Origin: a virus
DNA: 24,574 nt
IMG/VR virus record: IMGVR_UViG_3300013117_000346
Span: 1 to 24,574 of that record
Strand: one strand, 5' to 3'
Made by a program: the position numbers and the translations under genes. This document shows positions 2-20,274 of this stretch, in pieces. The notes beneath the pieces are model-generated. The model had not been told where the DNA came from and did no database searches. It saw nothing but the letters and a program-made list of their open reading frames with translations. Numbering within the stretch: position 1 is the first letter of the stretch; every line of letters starts with the position of its first letter.

Positions 2-376
2 ATAGTCAACTGCTTCGATGAATCAGCTGCTCTTATGAATCTTATTCATGAATGCCAGAGACAAATTTTAAATAATATTGATTGTTACGTGTTGTGGTTT
101 GTTGTCCAAGAAGGTACTTGGCAGCTAGAGCTTTTACCTGAGTGGCTTGAGTTTACTGAAGGGGGTTTCTGCGGGACCACTGACAACATTGATATAAATG
201 ACGATACTGGTATAGATTGGCAACGTGTTTATATCAGCCAAACTCCAGAAGAAGAATTGGAACATTGTCTAAATGAAATAAGGCAGTTCTGTAAAAATGT
301 TAATGAGAAACCAATGTCGCAAATGAAAACCCCAGTTGACCTTTTACTTGAGGAACTGGATCAGGAGGAACTATGA
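2..376 (+). CDS. hypothetical protein, 5' end outside window
   Basis: I do not recognise this protein. The frame is open from base 2 through to the TGA at 374-376. The first internal ATG is at 35, but no Shine-Dalgarno site precedes it, and the residues before it (IVNCFDESAAL) read like ordinary protein, so the gene probably starts left of the window. From the ATG at 35 it would be 113 aa. It has an aromatic-rich centre (YVLWFVVQEGTWQLELLPEW) and an acidic C-terminal third (EEELEHCLNEI, LLLEELDQEEL). Its stop overlaps the ATG of the next small ORF as ATGA, so the two are probably translationally coupled in the same rightward operon as the sigma factors. Nothing visible indicates function. Confidence 0.55.
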   Translation: MVNCFDESAALMNLIHECQRQILNNIDCYVLWFVVQEGTWQLELLPEWLEFTEGGFCGTTDNIDINDDTGIDWQRVYISQTPEEELEHCLNEIRQFCKNVNEKPMSQMKTPVDLLLEELDQEEL

Positions 377-480
377 CTGAAGAAGATTGGGAAGATGACA
401 TTGATTGGGATGATGAGGATGATTGGTACCCGGATGATGAGGATGATCGGTACACGGATGATGATGACAATTTTCTATAG
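373..480 (+). CDS. 35-aa highly acidic peptide ORF
   Basis: This 35-codon ORF starts at the ATGA overlap with the upstream gene and has a good ribosome site (AGGAGG-like, 363-368). More than half of its residues are Asp or Glu, in repeats such as DDEDDWYPDDEDDRY, plus Trp/Tyr. It ends with TAG at 478-480. After that TAG the same frame continues, with three codons (Q V I), straight into the ATG of the first sigma factor at 490. It may therefore be an independent acidic peptide, an acidic leader coupled to the sigma gene, or, if the TAG is read through, an acidic N-terminal extension of that sigma factor. Primary sigma factors carry an acidic region 1.1, which makes the last option attractive but unproven. 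Confidence 0.55.
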   Translation: MTEEDWEDDIDWDDEDDWYPDDEDDRYTDDDDNFL

Positions 481-489
481 CAGGTTATT

Positions 490-1281
490 ATGTGGGAAGA
501 AATATTCAAAGATCAATTAAAAGAAGCCTCCCGCTATATGGATGAGCTTCATAGTAAGCATTCTGAACCAATTTCCCGACAAGAAGAGTTGAATTTGTTC
601 CGTTTGTACAGGGAGCATGGTAACCTCCAAGCACGTAAAAAAATAATGAATAGCAATATGCGTTTCGTGGCCAAAGTAGCTATTAACTATAAACAATGTG
701 ATATGCCTCTGGTTGACCGAATTAATGAAGGAGCTTTAGGGATGGCAAAAGCTGTAGAAAAGTTTGAATATACCCGGGGCTTAAAATTCATTTCCTATGC
801 TGTATGGTGGATAAGGGCTTCCATAAATAAAGCTTTAAACGAGAAAAACAATTTGATTAGACTACCCTCCAACAAGTACGATAAGTTGCGCAGGTCCATT
901 AATAAAGTGGATAATATATCTGATTTATGTTCTGAGGATTTGCAGTCATATAAAACTTTGCGGGGTATTGTTTCACTGGATAACCAATTGGACAGTAACG
1001 GAGATGAAAGCAGCAGTTATGAAAAAATTGTAATAGATCCTGGACACGATGCAACTCATGAGTTAGAAACATTTATTGATGCTGACCGTGTTAAGTATTT
1101 ATTGAAGTATTTGGAGCCCAAGCAAGTTAAAGTGTTAAAGCTTAGATTTGGTTTGGATGGTAATAGTTCAATGACTTTAACGCTTATTGCGGAAGTGCTA
1201 AAGCTATCAAAGGAACGTGTAAGACAGCTGGAACAAGCAGGGTTGTATACTTTACGTCAATTAATGACGAAAGGGGCCTGA
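490..1281 (+). CDS. sigma-70 family RNA polymerase sigma factor (copy 1)
   Basis: Predicted RNA polymerase sigma subunit, 263 aa, which would direct host core polymerase to phage promoters. Region 2 spans about residues 31-115 and includes the core-binding and promoter-melting signature (NMRFVAKVA, AVEKFEYTRGLKFISYAVWW, IRASINKAL). A region 3-like IRLPSNKYDKLRR follows at about 123-135. Region 4 lies near 205-258 with VLKLRFGLDG and a clear helix-turn-helix ending in LSKERVRQLEQAGLYTLR. It has no long region 1.1 or non-conserved region of its own, so it is a compact sigma closer to the RpoH/group 3 size class. The start at 490 has only a weak AGGT ribosome site. The acidic ORF upstream is in the same frame across one TAG. 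It is followed by a terminator and then by a paralogue. Family call is secure; promoter specificity is unknown. Confidence 0.93.
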   Translation: MWEEIFKDQLKEASRYMDELHSKHSEPISRQEELNLFRLYREHGNLQARKKIMNSNMRFVAKVAINYKQCDMPLVDRINEGALGMAKAVEKFEYTRGLKFISYAVWWIRASINKALNEKNNLIRLPSNKYDKLRRSINKVDNISDLCSEDLQSYKTLRGIVSLDNQLDSNGDESSSYEKIVIDPGHDATHELETFIDADRVKYLLKYLEPKQVKVLKLRFGLDGNSSMTLTLIAEVLKLSKERVRQLEQAGLYTLRQLMTKGA

Positions 1282-1291
1282 TAAGCCTCTG

Positions 1292-1318
1292 AAGGGGCCT
1301 AAACAGCCCTTTTCTTTT
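1292..1318 (+). terminator. intrinsic terminator after first sigma gene
   Basis: A hairpin with stem AAGGGGC / GCCCTTT (7 bp, one G-T pair) and a 7-nt loop is followed by a T-rich tract at 1310-1319. It begins about 10 bases after the sigma gene stop. The second sigma gene starts 23 bases further on with its own strong ribosome site, so this may only reduce transcription into it. The stem is short, so the call is moderate. Confidence 0.55.
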
Positions 1319-1340
1319 TATAATAATACAGGAGGACAAT

Positions 1341-2120
1341 ATGAAATTCACCGAAATTGATCCGTACTTTGATAACAAAATAAACAATTTACCAGTATTG
1401 ACTGATGAACAAACGAAACGATTGTTCATTCTCTTTCACAAAGGCTCCCGTGAAGCAAGAAAGCTGTTGATATTACATAATGTCAAATTTGTTCACAAAA
1501 TAGTGTTGGGTTATGCGGGTTACAATATGCCCCGGGTAGATCTGGCCTATGAGGGGATTATAGGGCTCATAGTGGCTGTAGAAAAGTTTGACCACACTAA
1601 AGGGGTAGAATTCCAAACCTATGCGGTCTACTGGATAAGATCCTATTTGAACAAAGCTTTAAACACCGTTGACGATTTTATAAGGGTGCCTGAGAATCAT
1701 TTGTTGGCTATTCGAAAAGCTTACCGGGAAAAAACAGTTGAATTTTTACCAGAAGTATTTAAAACAACAAATAGATTGCGTAATGCTGGTGTTTCAATGG
1801 AAACTGTAATAAATAGATCAAATGATAGATCAAATGGCAAGCCTTTAAAACTATATGACATTTTAGCAGATGTGAATGCTGATAATCCAGAAGAAATTGT
1901 GATTGACAATAGTAACCGTAAGTATGTAAAGAAGTGGCTTAAGGTGCTGCCGCAGAGAGAAGCGATGGTGCTGGACTTAGTGTATGGCCTGAATCAAAAT
2001 CAACCCTTAAGTACACATAACATCAGCAAATTGATTGGGTTATCTACAAAGGGTGTTTGTCAGACACGGGACCGGGGCCTGAGATTAATCAGAAAACATT
2101 TACAAAGGGAAAGGAGCTGA
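1341..2120 (+). CDS. sigma-70 family RNA polymerase sigma factor (copy 2, divergent paralogue)
   Basis: Second sigma-like protein, 259 aa, with an excellent ribosome site (AGGAGG at 1330-1335). Region 2 is recognisable at about residues 25-110 (HNVKFVHKIVLGY, EGIIGLIVAVEKFDHTKG, FQTYAVYWIRSYLNKALN) and lines up with copy 1 at roughly two residues in five, including the shared YAV-WIR---NKALN block. IRVPENH then matches the region 3 start. Region 4 is weaker: VLDLVYGLNQ followed by a helix-turn-helix-like ISKLIGLSTKGVCQTRDRGL, in which the usual ERVRQLE recognition helix is replaced by GVCQTRD. It probably arose by duplication and now reads a different -35 element, or acts as a competitor or regulator of copy 1. 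A strong terminator overlaps its stop codon. Confidence 0.88.
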   Translation: MKFTEIDPYFDNKINNLPVLTDEQTKRLFILFHKGSREARKLLILHNVKFVHKIVLGYAGYNMPRVDLAYEGIIGLIVAVEKFDHTKGVEFQTYAVYWIRSYLNKALNTVDDFIRVPENHLLAIRKAYREKTVEFLPEVFKTTNRLRNAGVSMETVINRSNDRSNGKPLKLYDILADVNADNPEEIVIDNSNRKYVKKWLKVLPQREAMVLDLVYGLNQNQPLSTHNISKLIGLSTKGVCQTRDRGLRLIRKHLQRERS

Positions 2121-2137
2121 AGAGCTCCTTATTTTTT
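2111..2137 (+). terminator. strong intrinsic terminator after second sigma gene
   Basis: A perfect 8-bp stem (AAGGAGCT / AGCTCCTT) with a GAAG tetraloop is followed by ATTTTTT. The 5' arm includes the last codons and stop of the second sigma gene. It separates the rightward sigma operon from the convergent leftward block. The leftward reading lacks a good T run directly after the stem, so the terminator is probably one-directional. Confidence 0.88.
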
Positions 2138-3048: not shown

Positions 3049-3058
3049 CCCCTATTAT

Positions 3059-3079
3059 AAAAAGTTACCTAGATAACTT
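3059..3079 (-). terminator. possible terminator downstream of the large terminase gene
   Basis: On the minus strand AAGTTA-TCTAGG-TAACTT forms a 6-bp stem directly followed by TTT, within the string GTAACTTTTTATAAT. It lies 14 bases after the terminase stop. The stem is AT-rich and short, so it is a weak terminator at best. The same GTAACTTTTT string recurs in other control regions of the window, so it could instead be part of an operator or promoter. Confidence 0.35.
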
Positions 3080-5208: not shown

Positions 5209-5245
5209 TAAATCTTTTCTCCTGTTGTTGGCTTATTGTTATTAT

Positions 5246-5271
5246 AAAAAGTTACGCCCTTCCACAAGGGC
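5246..5271 (-). terminator. hairpin plus T run (terminator or attenuator) before the 62-aa gene
   Basis: On the minus strand GCCCTT-GTGG-AAGGGC forms a 6-bp GC-containing stem, followed four to five bases later by CTTTTT. It lies between the repeat element at 5377-5411 and the first leftward gene. If the leftward promoter is near the repeat, this would be a leader attenuator. Confidence 0.4.
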
Positions 5272-5376
5272 ATAATATCAACTTTTTAAATAATTTGATT
5301 TTTAAGTTGTTCATTTGAATTAGTCATCTTGTCTGCCTTCGTTCCCTTACTTTCAATATAGATTAAGTTGAACATG

Positions 5377-5411
5377 AAACCTAATACTTTTTTAAAAAAG
5401 TTACACTTTTT
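5377..5411. repeat. 35-bp perfect repeat, copy 1, with 16-bp palindrome
   Basis: These 35 bases are identical to 9085-9119 in the same orientation. They contain the perfect 16-bp palindrome ACTTTTTTAAAAAAGT (5386-5401), followed by TAC and a further ACTTTTT, so three half-sites alternate in orientation. Both copies lie in intergenic regions between divergent genes. A shared operator or phage promoter element is the most likely role. Confidence 0.8.
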
Positions 5412-5497
5412 ATAAAAAAACTTTTTAGTTGTTTTATTCTTTCAAAAAGTAACCTAAAGGTAATGTTCAGAATAAAGTAAATTATAAGGAACAAACA

Positions 5498-5518: not shown

Positions 5519-7113
5519 AAGTAGATCAGCAAGTACAGCTCAAACAATTGCTAGCTATTATGGGCAATATTACTGGCAACCGTAATGACTCTAATTGGAC
5601 AAATTTTGCCAGCGGTATCGGGGGTGTCCAAGATAAAAATGAACAGACCGATTTTGTAATTGGTAGTTTGGTGCCCCTTCAGACTTTTGAGTCTATGTGC
5701 CGAAAGGATGGTATTGCCAAAACTATTGTGAAAGCTCCAGCAAAAGACGCAACTAAAAACTGGATTGAACTTACCGAAGATACTGATGGTAAGATATTAC
5801 GACAACTAAAGAAACTCAAAACTAAACAAGCCTTTACACAACTTCTTACACATGCCAGAAAGTTTGGAGGTGGTGCTATTCTGTTACAAACTAAAAATGG
5901 TGGTGAATTGAAAGAACCTTTGAAACTTACTGGCTCAGCTACTAAAATAACAGGATTGAAAAACTTTTCCCGGGCTGATTTTGATATATTGGAATCAGAT
6001 ATCAATGACGACCCTAAAAGTGAATTTTATGAAGATGTAGAAATATTCAAATTGAAAAAAAGACGGGGTGACACAGTAGAAATACACCGCAGCAGGTTAC
6101 TCATCTTAAAAGGTGAGAAATTAGACCGGGTTGAAACTTTAGCAGATCCAATTGAGGAAGAATTTTGGGGAACCAGCGTATTGGAAGCAGCTATGGATGC
6201 TTTGGGCTATTACGGTGTTGCCATGAAAGCCATATCTACTATGATGCAAGAAGCCACTATTGGTAAATTTATAATGGGGGGCCTCAAAGAGTTGCTAGAT
6301 GCCATGGGCGATAATGATGCGGAAACTAGCCAGGAAGCCTGGGCAAGATTCCAAGCCCGTATAAAAGCCATGGTAATTACTAAAAGTGTGATAAACGCTA
6401 TATTATTTGATGCTGAAGCGGGGGAAGATTTTAAACGTGATAGTTTTAACTTTGCTGGAATACCTGACATAGTGGCCTTGTTTCAAATGCAGTTAGCAGG
6501 TATGAATGAAATACCTATCACCAAGTTATTCGGAAGAAGCCCTGCTGGTGAAAATTCTACGGGGGAATCAGATGCGAAAAATTATGACAATCTTTGTATA
6601 GGGCTCCAGGAAGATATTGAACCGTTGGTCCAGCAATTAGTTGATATGATTACTGGTACAGAAGATAAATATGTTGTAACTTTCAAACATCCAACACCAC
6701 CTACTCAGAAAGAGCACTTGGAAATGAAAAAACTCCAAGCTGAGATTGATAAAATACATACCGTGGATGTGCCAGCTCTGTTCCCTGAAGAAGTAAGACA
6801 AAGCCGTTATGGTAACGGTGAATGGAGTTTTAATACAGAGATTTCTGGAAAAGGCCCCGTTGGTGAACCCGGTACCGAAGGTGAGGAAGAAGGTGAAGAA
6901 GCTACAGCTGAAGATGTGGCTGAGTATTTGGAAACCATTCAAGGCTTTAATCAATCAAAATTTGATGAAAAATTGGAAGAGAAACTGGATGAAATCATTG
7001 AAGCTTTAGACAAACCGGAATTTAATGAAATTTCTAAGAATGACCGCGTGGAAGCTTTAAAAGCAAGTGGTTATTTTACCGATGAACAAATTTCAAGGAT
7101 GACCAATTCATAA
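5515..7113 (+). CDS. phage portal protein (DUF1073-like)
   Basis: Portal subunit, 532 aa, which would form the dodecameric ring at the capsid vertex through which DNA is packaged. Signs of the DUF1073-type portal family are the N-terminal segment with CRKDGIAKTIVKAPAKDATK (62-81), FGGGAILL (117-124), the WGTSVLEAAMDAL segment (218-230) and, most diagnostic, LAGMNEIPITKLFGRSPAGE followed by NSTGESDAKNYDN (about 327-359). The C-terminus after residue 400 is low-complexity and very acidic (GTEGEEEGEEATAEDVAEYL) and then charged helical. It ends at TAATGG, overlapping the next gene by one base. No ribosome site precedes 5515; a 6-codon leader ORF with a site overlaps the start. It begins the rightward head operon. 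Confidence 0.9.
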   Translation: MKVDQQVQLKQLLAIMGNITGNRNDSNWTNFASGIGGVQDKNEQTDFVIGSLVPLQTFESMCRKDGIAKTIVKAPAKDATKNWIELTEDTDGKILRQLKKLKTKQAFTQLLTHARKFGGGAILLQTKNGGELKEPLKLTGSATKITGLKNFSRADFDILESDINDDPKSEFYEDVEIFKLKKRRGDTVEIHRSRLLILKGEKLDRVETLADPIEEEFWGTSVLEAAMDALGYYGVAMKAISTMMQEATIGKFIMGGLKELLDAMGDNDAETSQEAWARFQARIKAMVITKSVINAILFDAEAGEDFKRDSFNFAGIPDIVALFQMQLAGMNEIPITKLFGRSPAGENSTGESDAKNYDNLCIGLQEDIEPLVQQLVDMITGTEDKYVVTFKHPTPPTQKEHLEMKKLQAEIDKIHTVDVPALFPEEVRQSRYGNGEWSFNTEISGKGPVGEPGTEGEEEGEEATAEDVAEYLETIQGFNQSKFDEKLEEKLDEIIEALDKPEFNEISKNDRVEALKASGYFTDEQISRMTNS

Positions 7114-8132
7114 TGGCTGTAAACCCTGAAGAAAGTTATTTGTTTGACCCTTTGGTGCGCCACAGGGCTAAAATGCCAGCCTGGAGGCGTAAGCACACAC
7201 GAGACGGCATTTACAATATCCCTTGGTTATTTCCCCGTGCTGCTGAATTAGATTATGCGAGAACACTGCGAAAATACTACAAAGTAATGATTGATGGCTT
7301 TTTGGAATTTGTTGAGCCTCAATATGATCAATGGTTAAAGGATTACAGGCAGGATGCGGAAGAGAAACAAGATGATTACCCAGGGGACCTAAAGAACCTT
7401 GTAACATTTATAAATTCAGTCCAGGAAGAAATATTTGGTGACGTTGAAGATTACCGCACAGCATACCTATTAAAGAAAGCATCCGGAATTGACAATTTTA
7501 ATGTGAGTCAATGGGGTAAATTTACCGGGGCCGTATTAGGAGCTGATGCTGCTACGGCTTTTCTTTTACCTACTGAACCTTGGTTGGATGATGTACTTAA
7601 TAGCTGGATTGAGCGTAATGAAGAACTTTGGACCAATGTAACAAAAACCTTCATTTATAGTACCACACAGATTGTACGTAACGGTGTGGAACAGGGGCTG
7701 CTGTGGACTAATACACGTAATAATTTAGTTACCACTATGAATATGCCCATGACACGGGCTAATTTGATTGCTAGGGATCAGACTGCCAAGTTGAACAGCA
7801 GCCTTTCGGAAAGGAGAATGGGTGAAGCCGGTTTGAACCTGTATAAATGGTTGACAGCCGGTGATGAAAGGGTGCGAGGGAATCCCAAAGGCAAATACCC
7901 AAAAGCTAAACCCAGCCATCACGTTATGAATGGCAAAACTGCGCGATGGGACAAAAAAGAGCTGATATCTGATGACGGAGGCAAAACCTGGCGCAAGAAA
8001 AAAGGAAAAGAAGAACCTTTGCAAGTGGGTTGGGCCGTACAATGTAGATGTACTGGCATACCTATTTTCCGGGAGCTCCTGACAGCCGCGGATAAACATA
8101 TCGACCGCAGCCCCCATTTACAGGTTGCTTAA
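7113..8132 (+). CDS. Mu gpF-like minor head / head morphogenesis protein
   Basis: Minor capsid protein, 339 aa, expected inside or near the portal vertex, as in Mu gpF and SPP1 gp7. The N-terminal half is mostly helical and charged. The diagnostic part is at the C-terminus: ARDQTAKLNSSLSERRMGEA, then YKWLTAGDERVRG, a paired His in PSHHVMNGKTARW and the closing VGWAVQCRCTGIPIF, which correspond to the usual family pattern of a GDERVR, H--M-G and (N/Q)CRC. It overlaps the portal stop by one base. Its own stop overlaps, tail to tail by 4 bases, the end of the leftward Cys-rich gene, so this transcript meets an opposing one here with no visible terminator between them. Confidence 0.88.
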   Translation: MAVNPEESYLFDPLVRHRAKMPAWRRKHTRDGIYNIPWLFPRAAELDYARTLRKYYKVMIDGFLEFVEPQYDQWLKDYRQDAEEKQDDYPGDLKNLVTFINSVQEEIFGDVEDYRTAYLLKKASGIDNFNVSQWGKFTGAVLGADAATAFLLPTEPWLDDVLNSWIERNEELWTNVTKTFIYSTTQIVRNGVEQGLLWTNTRNNLVTTMNMPMTRANLIARDQTAKLNSSLSERRMGEAGLNLYKWLTAGDERVRGNPKGKYPKAKPSHHVMNGKTARWDKKELISDDGGKTWRKKKGKEEPLQVGWAVQCRCTGIPIFRELLTAADKHIDRSPHLQVA

Positions 8133-8791
8133 TCATCCTCATCATAATCAGAAAGATATCCACCACAATGGGGACATTCAAAACCTTGTTTCATAGTTAT
8201 TTTGCCACAAGCAAGGCATTTACGGGGTTCGTCATGATTGTTCAAATTTTTTATAAAATCAGATAATTTATCTGTTTTATTTTCTCTAATTTTAATTTCA
8301 ACTTGAATGATGTCATTGATGTTTTTGGTTGACTTAGCATCAATATCAATTTTCCTTATACCCCATTCTTTGTAGCAATCAGTTACGAAAGGACAAGATT
8401 TTTTATCATTACAATCTTTGTAGTCTACTCCCATCATCTTTTTGTGTGGGCATACGGGTATTTTAGGAATCTTTGATTGATTTAACATTTCGCTAATGAA
8501 ATTATTCAAATCATTGATAACTTCATCACCTGTTTTTTCTTTCCAAGTTTTGCTTGTTTTCTCTCCGGGCATTGTGCGAGGTTTATCAATGTCAACTGGA
8601 TCATCAATAATAACCATATCAAAATTTTTCCCAGTATTGTCAGGTTTTTTCCTAGTATCTCCATAAATAGGGCAATAACCTTCACAAGGATCTAAACCAC
8701 CAGCACAACCCTTAAAACAACCTTCAGCTTGTTTAGTTGTCATATCCAAGCAATCTTCATCGAAATCGTCACAGATATAATGTTTTTTCAT
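8129..8791 (-). CDS. cysteine-rich zinc-ribbon protein, 220 aa
   Basis: Leftward gene inserted inside the rightward head operon. The N-terminus carries a Cys cluster (ICDD, EDCLDM, GCFKGCAGG, DPCEGYCPIY; residues 7-40), the middle has CPHKKM, KDCNDKKSCPFVTDCYKEW, and the C-terminus ends in a classic zinc ribbon, CLACG then CPHCGG, followed by DYDEDD. Three Cys clusters suggest several bound metals. I recognise no family; a nucleic-acid or protein-binding regulator is possible. It lies 6 bases downstream of the lipoprotein gene, and the lipoprotein's TAG stop is in the same frame as this ATG. Its end overlaps the Mu F-like gene's end. It is probably an accessory (moron-like) gene rather than a structural one. 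Confidence 0.7.
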   Translation of the reverse strand: MKKHYICDDFDEDCLDMTTKQAEGCFKGCAGGLDPCEGYCPIYGDTRKKPDNTGKNFDMVIIDDPVDIDKPRTMPGEKTSKTWKEKTGDEVINDLNNFISEMLNQSKIPKIPVCPHKKMMGVDYKDCNDKKSCPFVTDCYKEWGIRKIDIDAKSTKNINDIIQVEIKIRENKTDKLSDFIKNLNNHDEPRKCLACGKITMKQGFECPHCGGYLSDYDEDD

Positions 8792-9037: not shown

Positions 9038-9084
9038 ATTGTTCTCCTTTTGTTATTGGTTATAATATAAACAGTTTTTCATTA

Positions 9085-9119
9085 AAACCTAATACTTTTT
9101 TAAAAAAGTTACACTTTTT
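9085..9119. repeat. 35-bp perfect repeat, copy 2, with 16-bp palindrome
   Basis: Identical over 35 bases to 5377-5411. The palindrome is at 9094-9109 and a third half-site ACTTTTT at 9113-9119. In both copies the minus strand continues about 15 bases beyond the repeat to TATATT (here TTTATATTATAA), a possible -10-like element for the leftward gene. It lies 48 bases upstream of the lipoprotein start. Confidence 0.8.
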
Positions 9120-18075: not shown

Positions 18076-20274
18076 ATGCCAGTAATTCGCGAACTACTAA
18101 CAAAATTTGGGATTCAGGTTGATGAAGCCAAATTAGATAAATGGAACAAGAAAATAAACAAAGGCAAACAAGCCCTTGAAAAACTTGACGCCAAATATCG
18201 TAAATTCGCGCAAAAAACCAAGGAAAAAATTGGAACTGGTTTGGGACGTGTAACCGATAAAATGAATGCTTTCAATACCCGAATGGAAACTTCATTTGGC
18301 AATATTTTGGGGCCGTTACGCTCCATGGCGCAACAAATACCTATTATTGGTCAATTTTTGGGAGGAATAACACCTACAGCAATAGCAGCGGGTGTTGCTA
18401 TTTATGGAGTGGTTAAAGCTGTTCAAGCTTTAACCACTGCCGTTCAAAAATACCTTGAATTTGAAAAAGGTATGAAAAGTGTACAGCGGGTTACATTAGC
18501 CACGTCTGATAATATGGAAAAATTGGAAGAAGCTGCCCTCAAGGCCGGTGAAGCCAGTATTTTTACCATTTCACAAGCAGCTGAAGCTGAAAAATTCCTG
18601 GCCCAAGCTGGTTTAGAAGTTGACGAAGTGATTGGAGCTCTCCCGGGCACACTACAACTTGCCGCAGCTGCTAATATGGACCTTGGGAGGGCAGCTGATA
18701 TTGCTACTGATATAATGAGTGCTCAAGGTTTAGCTGTTAAAGATTTAACGCATATTAATGATGTACTTGTTAAAAGTGCTACATTGACGACACAAACTGT
18801 TGCAGGTATGGGTAGTGGTTTTGCTACAGTAGGTACCGAAGCAAAACAAAGTGGATTGGATATTGCACAAGTGGCTGCCTCACTAGGTATACTAGCAAAA
18901 GCTGGGCTAAAAAGGGAATTAGGTGGAACTTTATTCCGTAATCTTTTAGCAGAATCCAAACGCACTAAATTTAAAAAAGCTTTAAAAGATATCAATATTG
19001 ATTTAGAACGTTTTATGAACACAGCTACAGGGGAATTTACAGATTTTGAAGGTTTAGTTAAAACTTTATCCGAATTGTCTAAAGAGGACATGTTTGCTTT
19101 CACTCAAGACGGTTTTGCCCAAGCTTCCCGGGGTAAAAGAGCTCTTTTGGCTTTAGTACAAATGTCGAGCGAATTGGATGAAAATTTAAAAAATATTAGA
19201 GAAAGCAGTGGTGTAGCTGAACAAGCTTCAGATGTTGCTTTTCAAGGTTTATCTGGTCGAATGGCTCTTTTTGCTTCCAAGATGGAAACAGCAATGGTAA
19301 GCTTTGTTAAAGATTCTGGGCTTGGTAATATTTTGACTGATATAGTAGCTACTGCGGTAAATGTTTTGCCTCCTTTAGTAAAAGGTTTAGGTGTGTTATT
19401 AAGCCCACTCGGATTCATGGTATCGATAATAACAAAAGGTATTAGGATTATGTCTTCTGTTGTGGGAGGGGCTTTAAAAATAGTGGCTAACACTGGCAGC
19501 AAATTAGTTAAAATAGCCGGCATCTTTTTGAATCCTTTTACAACTATTATAGAAAGGGTGCTTAATGGTATTGGTAGATTATTCGATGCAGCCTCAGACG
19601 TGGACAAAGGTCCTATGACAGGATGGTTAGATAAATTTGAAATGTTGGCCGAGTCTTTTGACAAATGGGCTTCTGGGATACTCAGAGACTTAGACCCTCT
19701 ATTGGGTGTAATTGATATATTGCTCAATGTTTTCTGGTTCGATCTCCCGAAAGCCACTGAAGCCTTAAGCAAAAAACTTGATGAAATGGCTAATAAAAGC
19801 ATAATTGTACGTTTAATAAGGGGCTTTTTACCAAAAGCAGAACCCGAAAAACTAGATGTTCGAAAACTCTCACGACAACTACCTGGAGGCGGTGGGCTTA
19901 CAGCTGGAGGTTTTGGAGGAGGTAGTTTAGATCCAATTTTTAAAATGGCTGATACTCTTAAAACTGCGGTCCAAGACACTTTAGCCCCAATACCTGAGAT
20001 ACTGGATAAAATGCCTGAAGCTTTAAAAAGGATTGATTATGACAAACTTGTTGAACAAGCTAGACAACCTTTACCAGCTATACCAGGAGGTTCATTGCCC
20101 GGGGTTAATCCTTTTGGAGGACCCAAACCAGCTCCTATCATACAAATAGGAGAAATCAAAGCTGAAGTTAATTTAGATGGAGCTCCAGCAGATACCCCGC
20201 CACTGGAAATAAGTACTGAAATTGCTGAAGGAACCGCAGAACAACTTCGTGATCTTATAAGGGAGTTTGACTGA
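18076..20274 (+). CDS. tail tape measure protein
   Basis: 732-aa tape measure that sets tail length and fills the tube. It opens with a basic helical stretch (AKLDKWNKKINKGKQALEKL), a hydrophobic helix at about 94-124 (PIIGQFLGGITPTAIAAGVA, IYGVVKAVQALTTAV), then the conserved TP901-type core: EKFLAQAGLEVDEVIGALPG, AANMDLGRAADIATDIMSAQ, FATVGTEAKQSGLDIAQVAA, LGGTLFRNLLAESKR and GFAQASRGKRALLALVQMSS. A second hydrophobic region lies near 430-470. The C-terminal 150 residues are Gly/Pro-rich and low-complexity (QLPGGGGLTAGGFGGGSLDP). By the usual rule of about 0.15 nm per residue the tail would be near 110 nm. AAGGTAG precedes the start by 5 bases. No peptidase or lysozyme motif was noticed. 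Confidence 0.9.
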   Translation: MPVIRELLTKFGIQVDEAKLDKWNKKINKGKQALEKLDAKYRKFAQKTKEKIGTGLGRVTDKMNAFNTRMETSFGNILGPLRSMAQQIPIIGQFLGGITPTAIAAGVAIYGVVKAVQALTTAVQKYLEFEKGMKSVQRVTLATSDNMEKLEEAALKAGEASIFTISQAAEAEKFLAQAGLEVDEVIGALPGTLQLAAAANMDLGRAADIATDIMSAQGLAVKDLTHINDVLVKSATLTTQTVAGMGSGFATVGTEAKQSGLDIAQVAASLGILAKAGLKRELGGTLFRNLLAESKRTKFKKALKDINIDLERFMNTATGEFTDFEGLVKTLSELSKEDMFAFTQDGFAQASRGKRALLALVQMSSELDENLKNIRESSGVAEQASDVAFQGLSGRMALFASKMETAMVSFVKDSGLGNILTDIVATAVNVLPPLVKGLGVLLSPLGFMVSIITKGIRIMSSVVGGALKIVANTGSKLVKIAGIFLNPFTTIIERVLNGIGRLFDAASDVDKGPMTGWLDKFEMLAESFDKWASGILRDLDPLLGVIDILLNVFWFDLPKATEALSKKLDEMANKSIIVRLIRGFLPKAEPEKLDVRKLSRQLPGGGGLTAGGFGGGSLDPIFKMADTLKTAVQDTLAPIPEILDKMPEALKRIDYDKLVEQARQPLPAIPGGSLPGVNPFGGPKPAPIIQIGEIKAEVNLDGAPADTPPLEISTEIAEGTAEQLRDLIREFD

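Follow-up and report, generated by a model that had tools for sequence, protein, structure and literature searches.

The phage-encoded sigma factor is among the simplest ways to retarget a host RNA polymerase. In the SPO1-type phages gp28 is the middle sigma and gp33/gp34 the late one, and the T4 late sigma gp55 is a short protein with a region 2, no region 4 and a sliding-clamp-binding tail that uses a late-type, -10-only motif. SP10, like SPO1, encodes three sigma factors, the sporulation-like member among them being non-essential (PMC9429907), BigBertha encodes two (PMC3853046), and among the phiEco32-like phages the 7-11 sigma (SaPh711_gp47), which possesses a region 4, reads a bipartite late promoter and the phiEco32 sigma (phi32_gp36), which has no region-4 homology, reads a single element (PMC8948821). 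Phages with several sigma factors are therefore already known, although from a few Bacillus phages; new in the phage described here, an uncultivated virus of bacteria, are an unrelated lineage and the combination of adjacent long paralogues with a conserved short sigma. The likeness to SPO1 and SP10 lies in three phage sigmas that would work with the host polymerase on staged promoters, here candidate ones, and the differences lie in the genome type, the probable host and the presence, among the three sigmas, of two neighbouring long sigma-70 paralogues with regions 2 and 4. The phiEco32-like phages differ in possessing one sigma each and in their motifs. The parallel with T4 gp55, a short region-2 sigma in a phage that encodes replication genes of its own, is one of analogy. 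The short sigma here differs in a predicted helical domain at its C-terminus and in best structural matches that are two-domain sigma chains, ECF sigmas included. That most sigma-bearing phages encode a single such factor, as the initial annotation of this DNA held, agrees with 9 of 12 viral records, which have one region-2 match (the other 3 have an extra weak one); its count of two sigma factors in this phage was right about the pair and short by one overall, the third sigma-family gene lying outside the stretch that it covered.

Two adjacent sigma-70-family genes

By the window we mean the whole stretch of DNA analysed, an IMG/VR record of 24,574 nt, and the pair and its signals lie near its start:

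490-1281, plus strand: long sigma 1 (P0001, 263 aa), sigma-70 family with regions 2 and 4 (Pfam region 2, 39.2 bits; region 4, 37.6 bits)
649-840, plus strand: sigma region 2 of P0001 (Pfam Sigma70_r2, residues 54-117; core binding, -10 recognition, melting)
1102-1260, plus strand: sigma region 4 of P0001 (Pfam Sigma70_r4, residues 205-257; -35 recognition helix SKERVRQLE)
1291-1313, plus strand: terminator-like hairpin after sigma 1 (hairpin search)
1314-1326, plus strand: CTTTTTATAATAA element, class B promoter-like, 27 nt before the sigma 2 ATG and fused to the hairpin T-run
1341-2120, plus strand: long sigma 2 (P0002, 259 aa), sigma-70 family with regions 2 and 4 (Pfam region 2, 42.7 bits; region 4, 26.6 bits)
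1467-1646, plus strand: sigma region 2 of P0002 (Pfam Sigma70_r2, residues 43-102)
1935-2096, plus strand: sigma region 4 of P0002 (Pfam Sigma70_r4, residues 199-252; recognition helix STKGVCQTR)
2111-2130, plus strand: terminator-like hairpin after sigma 2 (hairpin search)

The initial annotation had proposed two divergent sigma-70 ORFs at these positions with different recognition helices, and both points are borne out: the helices read SKERVRQLE and STKGVCQTR, the HMM search against region 2 and region 4 profiles that it recommended places each ORF above the Pfam curated cut-offs (24.0 bits for region 2, PF04542; 24.1 bits for region 4, PF04545), and a pairwise alignment gives 33% identity over 228 residues (E 3e-34). 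Both match phrog_351, 'RNA polymerase sigma factor', at E values of about 1e-41 to 1e-43, and their solved relatives are RpoS, SigA and SigB chains, those nearest to P0001 being RpoS/SigA (E 7e-29). Both also pass the NCBIfam superfamily model TIGR02937 (78.8 for P0001 and 72.7 for P0002, cut-off 42.9), and because the equivalog and subfamily cut-offs are missed by far (best 159 and 117 bits vs 384.5 and 378.7, among the models listed, for RpoD, RpoS, RpoH and SigB-F-G), the right name for them is sigma-70-family factors, not RpoS or RpoD. P0002 is the more diverged of the two, strongly so in the helix that reads the -35; its AlphaFold2 model (mean pLDDT 75, with the sigma2 and sigma4 blocks mostly at about 80-93 and a weak linker) has SigA and RpoS holoenzyme chains as its top Foldseek matches over the length of the protein (E 2e-12), and as modelled it is a complete two-domain sigma fold. 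A second contig carries the same pair with 2 base differences across both genes, one silent and the other an A-to-V change in the last codon of the first ORF. Directly upstream of sigma 1, after an ORF at 2-376, there is an extremely acidic ORF of 35 aa (MTEEDWEDDIDWDDEDDWYPDDEDDRYTDDDDNFL; window 373-480, plus strand).

In E. coli sigma70 the residues D403, E407, F427, Y430 and W433/W434 serve in binding the beta' coiled coil and opening the -10. On alignment P0001 keeps the equivalents of all of these and P0002 keeps the same core-binding and melting residues except for W-to-Y at 433, and from these retained residues both proteins are predicted to bind core RNA polymerase; the initial annotation had named the lack of core-binding residues in one ORF as evidence against its proposal, and the alignment finds them in both. 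The DNA-reading positions are altered, with A or S for Q437 and N for T440, and the region-4 helix reads STKGVCQ in P0002 vs SKERVRQ in P0001. Because core and melting residues are kept while DNA-reading positions change, altered promoter choice is favoured over a decoy function.

The two genes had also been credited with a terminator each, and a hairpin does follow each gene, while the T-run of the first passes into the CTTTTTATAATAA element, which may, judging by its motif, be a promoter for gene 2; hairpins of this terminator-like class number 5, vs 4.3 expected in shuffles, which is no clear excess. Hairpins whose T-run passes straight into TATAATA occur at 1291-1326 and 5275-5239 of the window, at about 31690-31725 of G001 and at about 56025-56070 of G002, and look as if terminator and -10 element form one unit.

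Genome, relatives and probable host

Along its length the window is 99.7-99.9% identical to IMGVR_UViG_3300009314_000009, a contig of 67,980 nt which, because of an exact 119-bp direct terminal repeat, is in all likelihood a complete genome of about 67.86 kb. This genome has 36% GC and frequent Shine-Dalgarno sequences, and it encodes a DNA polymerase of family A that has a UDG domain, a DnaB-like helicase, a terminase, a portal (PF06381), a capsid (PF09950) and a DUF3383 protein, which we take to be the likely tail sheath; the phage is probably contractile-tailed. The third sigma-family gene was located in it:

18280-18924 of IMGVR_UViG_3300009314_000009, minus strand: short sigma, 204-214 aa (Pfam region 2, 31.5 bits)

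A Pfam search for region 4 in the short sigma gave no match. Its structural model is poor (pLDDT 56), with helices C-terminal to sigma2; the structural neighbours are nearly all sigma chains, and the best of them are two-domain chains, ECF sigmas included. An Rfam search of the window gave no match. A cysteine-rich ORF of 220 aa (window 8129-8791, minus strand) lies on the opposite strand, with the portal/Mu-F-like genes on one side and the DUF2213 gene on the other; it shares four bases with the end of the Mu-F-like gene, and the relatives contain no full-length orthologue of it.

Two syntenic relatives are present in IMG/VR (3300031565_000016 and 3300037245_003482), most of whose shared structural and replication genes are 45-77% identical to those of this phage, and searches for further relatives with capsid and short-sigma profiles returned the same three genomes only, so that the comparison covers three independent genomes. 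Each relative possesses a single short sigma and a single long sigma, the latter encoded immediately upstream of the portal gene, and because of this the tandem pair is, from the gene content of the three phages compared, an extra long sigma peculiar to this one. Short-sigma orthologues are 47-48% identical, and the long sigmas of different phages are only 28-34% identical, far more diverged than other genes, with tree branches of 1.7-5 changes per column and the longest leading to P0002; the long sigmas thus appear to evolve faster, or to be exchanged more often, than their neighbouring genes. A tree with P0001 and P0002 as sisters is not rejected (p-AU 0.60), the branches being too long to decide, and the second long sigma, so far found in this phage only, would have arisen by duplication or by a second capture. 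Two diverged long sigmas here vs one in the relatives provide a natural comparison for how promoter specificity splits after a sigma gain.

The long sigmas also point to a host. In a collection of 85,000 species, scanned with patterns derived from the phage alignment, the best match of P0001 among those listed is the Fibrobacterota sigma L061 (39%, E 5e-48; best other phylum 1e-40), and 149 of 151 Fibrobacterota genomes match P0001 at E <= 1e-25, many of them at about 1e-49. The stretch between region 2.4 and region 4 measures 90-91 residues in Fibrobacterota, about 92-97 in the phages (read off the alignment for P0001 and P0002, both of which the script's pattern missed) and 106-109 in other FCB sigmas, so that the Fibrobacterota sigma (for example L061, L141-L152) is about 16-18 residues shorter here; it also has A or S for Q at the -12-reading position, as do 3 of the 4 phage long sigmas. 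It differs in being only 38-43% identical to P0001, the phage copies being much more diverged. Because all four phage long sigmas share this region 3, shortened by about 16 residues, with the Fibrobacterota sigma, to which type P0001 is closer than P0002, the host is probably a member of the Fibrobacterota. A pattern scan for prophage or host genomes with the same capsid found none, and the same capsid was not found in two sigma-bearing genomes. The phage would be a lead to Fibrobacterota phages, for which a literature search returned no dedicated genome study.

Promoter-like signals in three phages

Classes of promoter-like signal were sought by footprinting across the three phages, every candidate being drawn from sequence, and matches to canonical sigma-70 promoters at 11 of 12 positions were not clearly above shuffles in any of them. 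Four sites in the window serve as examples of two of the classes:

3052-3064, minus strand: class B element CTTTTTATAATAG, GGG next (motif scan)
5239-5251, minus strand: class B element after a hairpin at 5275-5252 (motif scan)
5345-5393, minus strand: class A site AAAAAAGTATTAGG-N19-TATATTGAAAGTAAGG (score 41.5 vs best shuffle 15.6)
9058-9101, minus strand: class A site AAAAAAGTATTAGG-N18-TATATTATAACC (score 31.1)

Class B, [CG]TTTTTATAATA, has 8, 6 and 5 copies in the three phages vs 0.05-0.17 per genome in shuffles, and frequently lies 26-40 nt ahead of a start codon and, in many cases, immediately 3' of a hairpin. The long-sigma genes are preceded by CTTTTTATAATA promoter-like elements: in this phage a class B element stands before the operon of P0001, 143 nt upstream of the first base of the window, and in the relatives TTATAATA or CTTTTTATAATAGGGG stands before the long sigma, so that in each of the three phages every long-sigma gene or operon has class B or TTATAATA before it, against a background of about 7-12% of genes with TTATAATA within 150 nt. 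Class B as a host promoter in Fibrobacterota was considered and found no support, as the six genomes scanned contain TTTTTATAATAG no more often than its reversed form.

Class A is bipartite, AAAAAAGTATTAGG-N18/19-TATATT[AG].AAGTAAGG, with a spacing of 18-19 and -35 variants TTAGG, TATCTCC (in this phage) and TTTGC/CTTGT (in the relatives); with a matrix seeded from sites spotted by eye, its best sites score 25-44 vs at most 17.5 in shuffles, and some copies are non-independent, being one cassette repeated (in this phage a cassette of 104 bp, in G002 a pair of near-identical copies). In 3 of 3 phages the short-sigma operon is preceded by a class A site of the variable kind (AAAAAAGTATTAGG-N19-TATATT and variants). 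That 104-bp cassette (96% identical), which holds a palindrome, ACTTTTTTAAAAAAGT, and a class A site, lies at 5324-5427 of the window and at 5756-5859 of G001, with a shorter copy at about 9063-9107 of the window, and has seemingly been copied around the genome ahead of small genes; in G002 small ORFs starting MTTTTTTT and MTTTTKIT (26040-26267 and 29546-29800) each have a near-identical class A cassette before them. Class C, TATATTTAAAGTAATA, is a handful of sites. It precedes the portal gene of both relatives by 29-34 nt and is not clearly seen at that of this phage; a related motif, TATATTAAAAGTAA, precedes the gene for the small terminase here and in one of the relatives.

A candidate sigma relay and its rivals

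The reading that we find best, and hold to be about equally apt to prove right or wrong, is a relay from host sigma to long sigma(s) to short sigma that redirects the host RNA polymerase. A host-type holoenzyme would read the CTTTTTATAATA (class B) elements, upon which the long sigma(s) would be made; these would read the bipartite A6-[element]-N19-TATATT (class A) promoters, that of the short-sigma operon among them; and the short sigma would then take over later promoters, including those of the virion genes (TATATTTAAAGTAATA). That the motifs act as promoters, when they would do so and which sigma pairs with which class are all points that we infer from the sequences. Because TTAGG matches the short sigma in being conserved, and the other class A variant matches the long sigma in changing, the pattern, seen at few sites, suggests that the long sigma reads the variable variant. 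The second long sigma has no promoter assigned to it, as phages with only one long sigma also have both class A variants; its possible roles are split specificity, host reprogramming or that of a redundant copy. A fuller version of the relay, tentative and on the whole improbable, would add that in this undescribed lineage, probably of Fibrobacterota phages, the long sigma and the -35 of the short-sigma promoter change together from one phage to the next, that one phage gained a second long sigma and is splitting its promoter specificity, and that transcription of gene 2 begins at an element joined to the gene 1 terminator.

The initial annotation had instead suggested a two-stage transcription switch, and staged transcription is indeed likely; that the tandem pair itself is the switch finds no support, because relatives with a single long sigma have the same kinds of promoter-like signal and a short sigma, so that the conserved switch looks like one from long to short sigma. 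A pair in which one class of promoters belongs to P0001 and a later class to P0002, with the short sigma as an auxiliary, would fit the differing recognition helices, the promoter-like element of P0002 behind a terminator-like hairpin, which would make separate levels possible, and the two class A -35 variants of this phage (TTAGG and TATCTCC), but the tandem arrangement is absent from the relatives and these also have two class A variants (TTAGG and a TTTGC-like one), which makes this reading unlikely; the pairing of one -35 variant with each long sigma was rejected, as the simple explanation, on the same observation. Quite unlikely, too, is that one of the pair reprogrammes host genes in the manner of the sporulation-type sigmas of Bacillus phages and is dispensable in the lytic cycle: P0001 resembles the sigma of many Fibrobacterota genomes (38-43%) and could use its promoters, and the third sigma of SP10 (g120) is non-essential and sporulation-like (PMC9429907), but phage-specific promoter-like motifs are present. 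We would allow only a slim chance that sigma gene exchange has left the second copy as a transient by-product that is redundant or decaying and lacks a distinct role, as could be argued from a pair found in one lineage only and from long sigmas as unusually diverged as often-exchanged genes should be, P0002 on the longest branch, for both ORFs are intact, keep their functional residues, have signals of their own and are nearly identical in two contigs. An antagonist, in which one ORF is an anti-sigma-like decoy of the other or of the host sigma, had likewise been offered by the initial annotation, and despite the tandem paralogues and the very acidic 35-aa ORF directly upstream (373-480), which could also bind a sigma, it is very improbable given that both ORFs have the core-binding and strand-opening residues and P0002 models as a full two-domain sigma.
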